NCBI RefSeq assembly: GCF_020697055.1
Contig: NZ_JAJFBP010000017.1
Span: forward strand, 1-64,000
DNA from: Panacagrimonas sp.
GTDB taxonomy: Bacteria > Pseudomonadota > Gammaproteobacteria > Nevskiales > Nevskiaceae
Direction of reading: 5' to 3'
DNA: 64,000 nucleotides
The position numbers were made by a program, and so were the translations under genes. Of the stretch, positions 1-886 are shown one piece after another (position 1 is the first letter of the stretch; every line of letters begins with the position of its first letter). The notes beneath the pieces were generated by a model. It saw only the letters and a program-made list of their open reading frames with translations. It searched no databases and was not told the DNA's origin.

Positions 1-886
1 GAAGCTCTTGATCGAAGCCCCAGTAAACGGCGGCCGTAACTATAACGGTCCTAAGGTAGCGAAATTCCTTGTCGGGTAAGTTCCGACCTGCACGAATGGA
101 GTAACGATAGCCCCACTGTCTCCTTCCGAGGCTCAGTGAAATTGAATTCGCTGTGACGATGCAGTGTTCCCGCGGCAAGACGGAAAGACCCCGTGAACCT
201 TTACTATATCTTTACATTGGATTTTGAGTTTGTTTGTGTAGGATAGGTGGGAGGCTTTGAAGCCTGGACGCTAGTTCAGGTGGAGCCAACCTTGAAATAC
301 CACCCTGATAAACTCGAAGTTCTAACCTCGTCCAGTCATCCTGGGCAGGGACAATGTATGGTGGGTAGTTTGACTGGGGCGGTCTCCTCCCAAAGAGTAA
401 CGGAGGAGTGCGAAGGTCAGCTCAGCGCGGTCGGAAATCGCGCTCTTGAGTGCATAGGCACAAGCTGGCTTGACTGCGAGACAGACAAGTCGAGCAGGTA
501 CGAAAGTAGGTCTAAGTGATCCGGTGGTTCTGTATGGAAGGGCCATCGCTCAACGGATAAAAGGTAGGTTCAGAACGTCGTGAGACAGTTCGGTCCCTAT
601 CTGCCGTGGGCGTTCGAGATTTGAGAGGAGTTAACCTTAGTACGAGAGGACCGGGTTGAACGTATCTCTGGTGTTCCAGTTGTCACGCCAGTGGCATCGC
701 TGGGTAGCTATATACGGACGGGATAAACGCTGAAAGCATCTAAGCGTGAAGCCCACCTCAAGATGAGATCTCGCGGAGCTTCGAGCTCCCTAAAGAGCCC
801 TTGTAGACGACAAGGTTGATAGGCGCGGTGTGTACGGCCGGTAACGGTCAGCTAACGCGTACTAATTGCTCGTGCGGCTTGACCAT
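1..886 (+). rRNA. rrl: 23S ribosomal RNA, 3' part, with internal deletion
   Basis: This is the 3' portion of the large-subunit rRNA (domains IV to VI); the 5' part lies outside the window. Recognisable landmarks are the helix 69 region near 36-60, the macrolide-site motif GGAAAGACCCC near 182-192 (the bases matching E. coli A2058 and A2059, at 184-185, are wild type), and the sarcin-ricin loop AGTACGAGAGGACC at 639-652. The end is placed at GGCTTGACCAT. The sequence jumps at 566/567 from GGATAAAAGGTA straight to GGTTCAGAACGTCGTGAG. In the E. coli gene about 142 nt lie between these two motifs, including A2451 and the A-loop. As written this molecule could not form a peptidyl-transferase centre, so it is either a misassembly or a defective copy. 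Confidence 0.97.

Follow-up and report, generated by a model that had tools for sequence, protein, structure and literature searches.

A Panacagrimonas 23S rRNA gene written without 142 nt of its peptidyl-transferase centre: most likely an assembly misjoin

The window analysed here, 64,000 nt at the tip of a contig in the draft genome of a Panacagrimonas sp. (G000:C9:1-64000), opens inside a 23S rRNA gene that, as written, lacks part of the peptidyl-transferase centre. By established knowledge of this centre, an RNA without it would not give a working ribosome, and the locus raises the question of whether the organism truly carries such a gene or whether the gene was shortened during assembly. 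An earlier note on this DNA had claimed a direct junction at 566/567 and a loss of about 141 to 142 nt; both claims proved right. In the window GGATAAAAGGTA runs straight into GGTTCAGAACGTCGTGAG (positions 555-584), and using cmscan we obtained a match to LSU_rRNA_bacteria (RF02541) at 1-886 on the forward strand, covering model positions 1901-2925 with 864.4 bits against a gathering score of 50, as expected of a bacterial 23S gene cut by the contig start. In this alignment model positions are skipped at the junction and both flanks align well. The features of the locus, with the same-genus genome G001 as reference, are:

1..566, + strand: 3' part of the 23S rRNA gene left of the junction; the contig starts inside the gene, at Rfam model position 1901 (cmscan RF02541; 558/566 identical to G001)
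566..567, + strand: junction without 142 nt of the peptidyl-transferase centre, most likely an assembly misjoin (G001 alignment; spacing in 27/29 relative loci; zero microhomology)
567..886, + strand: 3' end of the 23S rRNA gene right of the junction, sarcin-ricin loop included (cmscan RF02541; 313/320 identical to G001)
1022..1136, + strand: 5S rRNA gene, ordinary (cmscan RF00001, 93.6 bits)

No tRNA genes were found in the window by ARAGORN. A separate whole-genome family search with RF02541 gave no match in this genome, despite the 864 bits obtained by cmscan; the same search was positive in 10 of 14 control genomes, so that its negatives call for care, and the null is a miss of that search, as cmscan and the DNA searches show.

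The size of the loss was determined by alignment to the 23S genes of relatives, a check that the earlier note had proposed. Both flanks, 1-566 and 567-886, gave ungapped alignments to G001, in which they are separated by exactly 142 nt. The same spacer of 142 nt was found in 27 of 29 relative loci, and in the other two (L023, L030) a contig begins or ends within it. Because the region is so conserved, the 142-nt difference is not chance variation. The missing part, which we take to correspond to about positions 2440-2581 of the E. coli 23S rRNA, presumably holds A2451, U2506 and the A-loop. The join itself displays 0 nt of microhomology on both sides, and the break regions share no word longer than 5 nt; a deletion through microhomology or direct repeats was rejected on these grounds.

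The draft assembly comprises 72 contigs, is 90.57% complete and holds a torn rRNA operon. C9, the contig of the window, begins inside the 23S gene, and the 16S gene, located on C68, runs off its contig end at model position 1135. A 7.5-kb query taken from the operon region of G001, which has a run of 2500 N of its own, matched C68 and C9 only. Outward of the two rRNA pieces the sequence is syntenic with the surroundings of the G001 operon on either side, so that C68 and C9 look like two ends of one operon. In a comparison of the 144 contig tips, each taken as 300 nt, pairs in which both tips were all N were set aside, and 23 of the 26 readable pairs overlapped by exactly 99 nt, the rest by 90, 97 and 97 nt. 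Split by type, the exact 99-nt overlaps comprise 20 of 23 head-to-tail pairs and 3 of 3 shared tips. A k of 141 as the cause of the 142-nt length was rejected from these overlap lengths. No partner was found among the readable tips for the rRNA tips of C9 and C68. Fixed overlaps of 99 nt are as left by de Bruijn assemblers, of which they are a typical remnant; one study describes perfect overlaps linked to the largest k-mer as frequent in IDBA-UD and metaSPAdes scaffolds (PMC7111523).

Contig ends in related genomes gather at this place. In a survey of 85 genomes of the order, 45 had a match to the 1717-nt 23S stretch, and a contig end was counted when the match stopped within 25 nt of it, which gave 11 ends (G000, the window's own genome, and G025, G034, G041, G051, G055, G057, G058, G062, G063 and G067); truncated matches not seen at a contig end (e.g., G003, G010, G076, G079 and G080) were left out. 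An interval of 154 nt, which opens 12 nt ahead of the junction and closes where the missing segment ends, contains six of the 11 (p = 1.6e-4), and the 142 nt themselves contain four (p = 0.0096); with the own genome removed the counts are 6/10 (p = 7.9e-5) and 4/10 (p = 0.0065), all these p-values being descriptive, as the 154-nt interval was drawn after G025 and G057 had been seen to end there. The contigs of G025 and G057 stop at the same base, the first letter of GGATAAAAGGTA before the junction. The clustered ends, the 99-nt overlaps and the contig start in the same gene together mark the assembly as a short-read draft whose contigs break at sites of this kind.

Allowing up to 30 nt of play, we found the junction in just one of the 58 genomes of the family, that of the window. 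The intact 33-mer at the left edge of the segment is present in 30 of the 58 and absent from the own genome; missing rRNA is usual in draft genomes, which may account for the other 27 without it. The exact junction pattern had no match in genome_contigs or viral_contigs, in a scan from which the own-genome records were possibly left out, and an allele shared in these two collections was rejected as an account of the junction. A looser pattern was also without match in viral_contigs. Over 84,980 genomes, a loose pattern recovered two more shortened 23S records, both from Gammaproteobacteria MAGs. In the first (L051; CAMYMN010000021.1, 2313-2343, + strand), GGATAAAAGGTACT is followed by AGAACG, 145 nt short of the usual spacing, and the locus also contains N runs of 43 and 92. 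In the second (L052; WVYN01000081.1, 607-662, - strand), GGATAAAAGGTAC and TAAAGTGGTACGCGAGCTGGGTTTAGAACG are separated by NN, two N standing in place of about 120 nt, and a run of 3190 N occurs in the record as well; since masking preserves length, it cannot be the source of the NN. Both records share with the window the place of the loss within the 23S gene and their origin in Gammaproteobacteria MAGs, and on the left side the three genes break no more than 2 nt apart, where the pattern allowed about 30 nt; they differ from it in the length lost and in their right breaks. A cause in the DNA, or one in library preparation, is a further possibility suggested by the coinciding left breaks. The 23S gene of L051 is also longer by about 300 nt past model position 583 (L051:141-446), through either an intervening sequence or another assembly insert.

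Taking these observations together, we consider it very probable that the absence of the 142 nt is a local error of short-read de Bruijn assembly rather than something the organism carries. Across the bacteria of a sampled community the peptidyl-transferase segment of 23S would be near-identical, and the assembly graph would branch or lose support there, so that contigs would stop on either side of the segment. Scaffolding or gap closing would then probably have joined the two flanks of one ordinary 23S gene, intact in the living organism, omitting the 142 nt between them and inserting no N. Two points fit a misjoin poorly and give no pointer to the exact step: no N stands at the junction, and 142 differs from the 99-nt overlap length. 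The earlier note had offered three readings of the locus, a collapsed assembly, a dead rRNA copy and a piece that has moved. The first of these is well supported by the operon torn at contig tips, by the hot spot of contig ends and by the two further shortened MAGs, one of them with NN, and the other two found no support.

The shortened gene might be a real 23S copy that was recently deleted and is dead, carried by the cell or by a fraction of the population, beside an intact operon that is unassembled or unreadable. Such an event would agree with the clean junction and with flanks that are both close to one genome. As two or three 23S places were found in some family relatives (G004, G005, G016 and G042), an unassembled second 23S copy is possible in this organism, and an intact one could hide in four contigs (C54, C56, C57 and C64; 2.6-2.9 kb each, 10,973 bases together) whose 300-nt tips read N at both ends. 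These contigs also qualify the count of rRNA operons that the earlier note had suggested: beside them, the genome shows one readable 16S place and one readable 23S place, that is, a single readable operon, torn between 16S and 23S. DNA searches found no intact 23S copy elsewhere in the readable sequence, which for these four contigs excludes both ends, and G001 likewise displayed one 23S place. The rest of the gene also speaks against a dead copy, given that no relaxed constraint was found there. Of the 15 substitutions in 886 positions with respect to G001 (window 1-886), six form three base pairs in which both partners have changed and local folds keep the pairing (331-345, 777-787 and 778-786). 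Of the remaining positions, none was counted as support: 317 and 319 are one-sided changes with pairing kept in local folds; at 256 and 262 the fold depends on the fragment used, one of the folds leaving position 256 without a standard pair in G001; 147, 809, 825 and 858 are unpaired in local folds; and 487 lies outside the folded set. Changes on both sides that keep the pairing are as in a gene selected for function, with the qualification that a very recent loss would not show in them. Considering also that the join has no microhomology and that other MAGs have lost sequence at this very place, we regard a dead copy as very unlikely.

Two further explanations place the loss either in the sequencing library or in the architecture of the ribosome. 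A chimeric or deleted amplification product, faithfully assembled, would account for left breaks that fall within 2 nt in three shortened genes; the NN in L052 points instead to scaffolding in that record, and the junction of the window shows no microhomology, which leaves this origin with a still slighter probability than a dead copy. In the moved-piece reading the 23S rRNA would be fragmented, and a separate locus would encode the 142-nt core, which would act in trans. Fragmented rRNAs are reported from some organelles (PMC3382252). When a 201-nt query comprising the segment and short flanks was searched against the readable genome, the hits besides the junction flanks were just six, each 15 to 28 bases long (E-values of 2.8 to 5.3), a chance level of similarity, and in 27 of the 29 relative loci the segment sits at its usual position. 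Judged by the 23S structure, moreover, the 142 nt would not make up a closed set of helices. A transposed core is accordingly the least credible of the explanations considered here, close to negligible. More broadly, a loss that is real and fixed at this locus, beside either an intact copy or a source of the core in trans within unassembled or unreadable sequence, is highly improbable. No natural bacterial 23S gene without this segment was reported in the titles or abstract openings found, a statement that extends no further than those texts.

The assembly misjoin thus stands as the best explanation, and the shortened 23S is almost certainly not a real feature of the organism. If true, the loss would be striking ribosome biology; nothing here favours it. 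The case carries a caution of more general reach, namely that rRNA genes in short-read drafts can be silently shortened, with no N to mark the place, and the region affected is the one on which comparisons of drug sites and ribosomes draw most. The two further cases in 84,980 genomes indicate that such shortening recurs, though rarely in the form that the pattern used here could detect.

The closest known counterpart is the local assembly error of metagenome-assembled genomes. In the passages of the source that concern us, MAG assemblies are described as containing local assembly errors and nonunique sequence at scaffold ends, and all assemblers as probably making local errors at times (PMC7111523). 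The present case differs from those described in these passages in that a loss in the 23S catalytic centre is not named there, and in that the error would here be recognised from the assembled sequence. It shares with them a consensus that is most likely wrong at a contig or scaffold join, and tips that carry nonunique sequence and overlaps of fixed length (PMC7111523).
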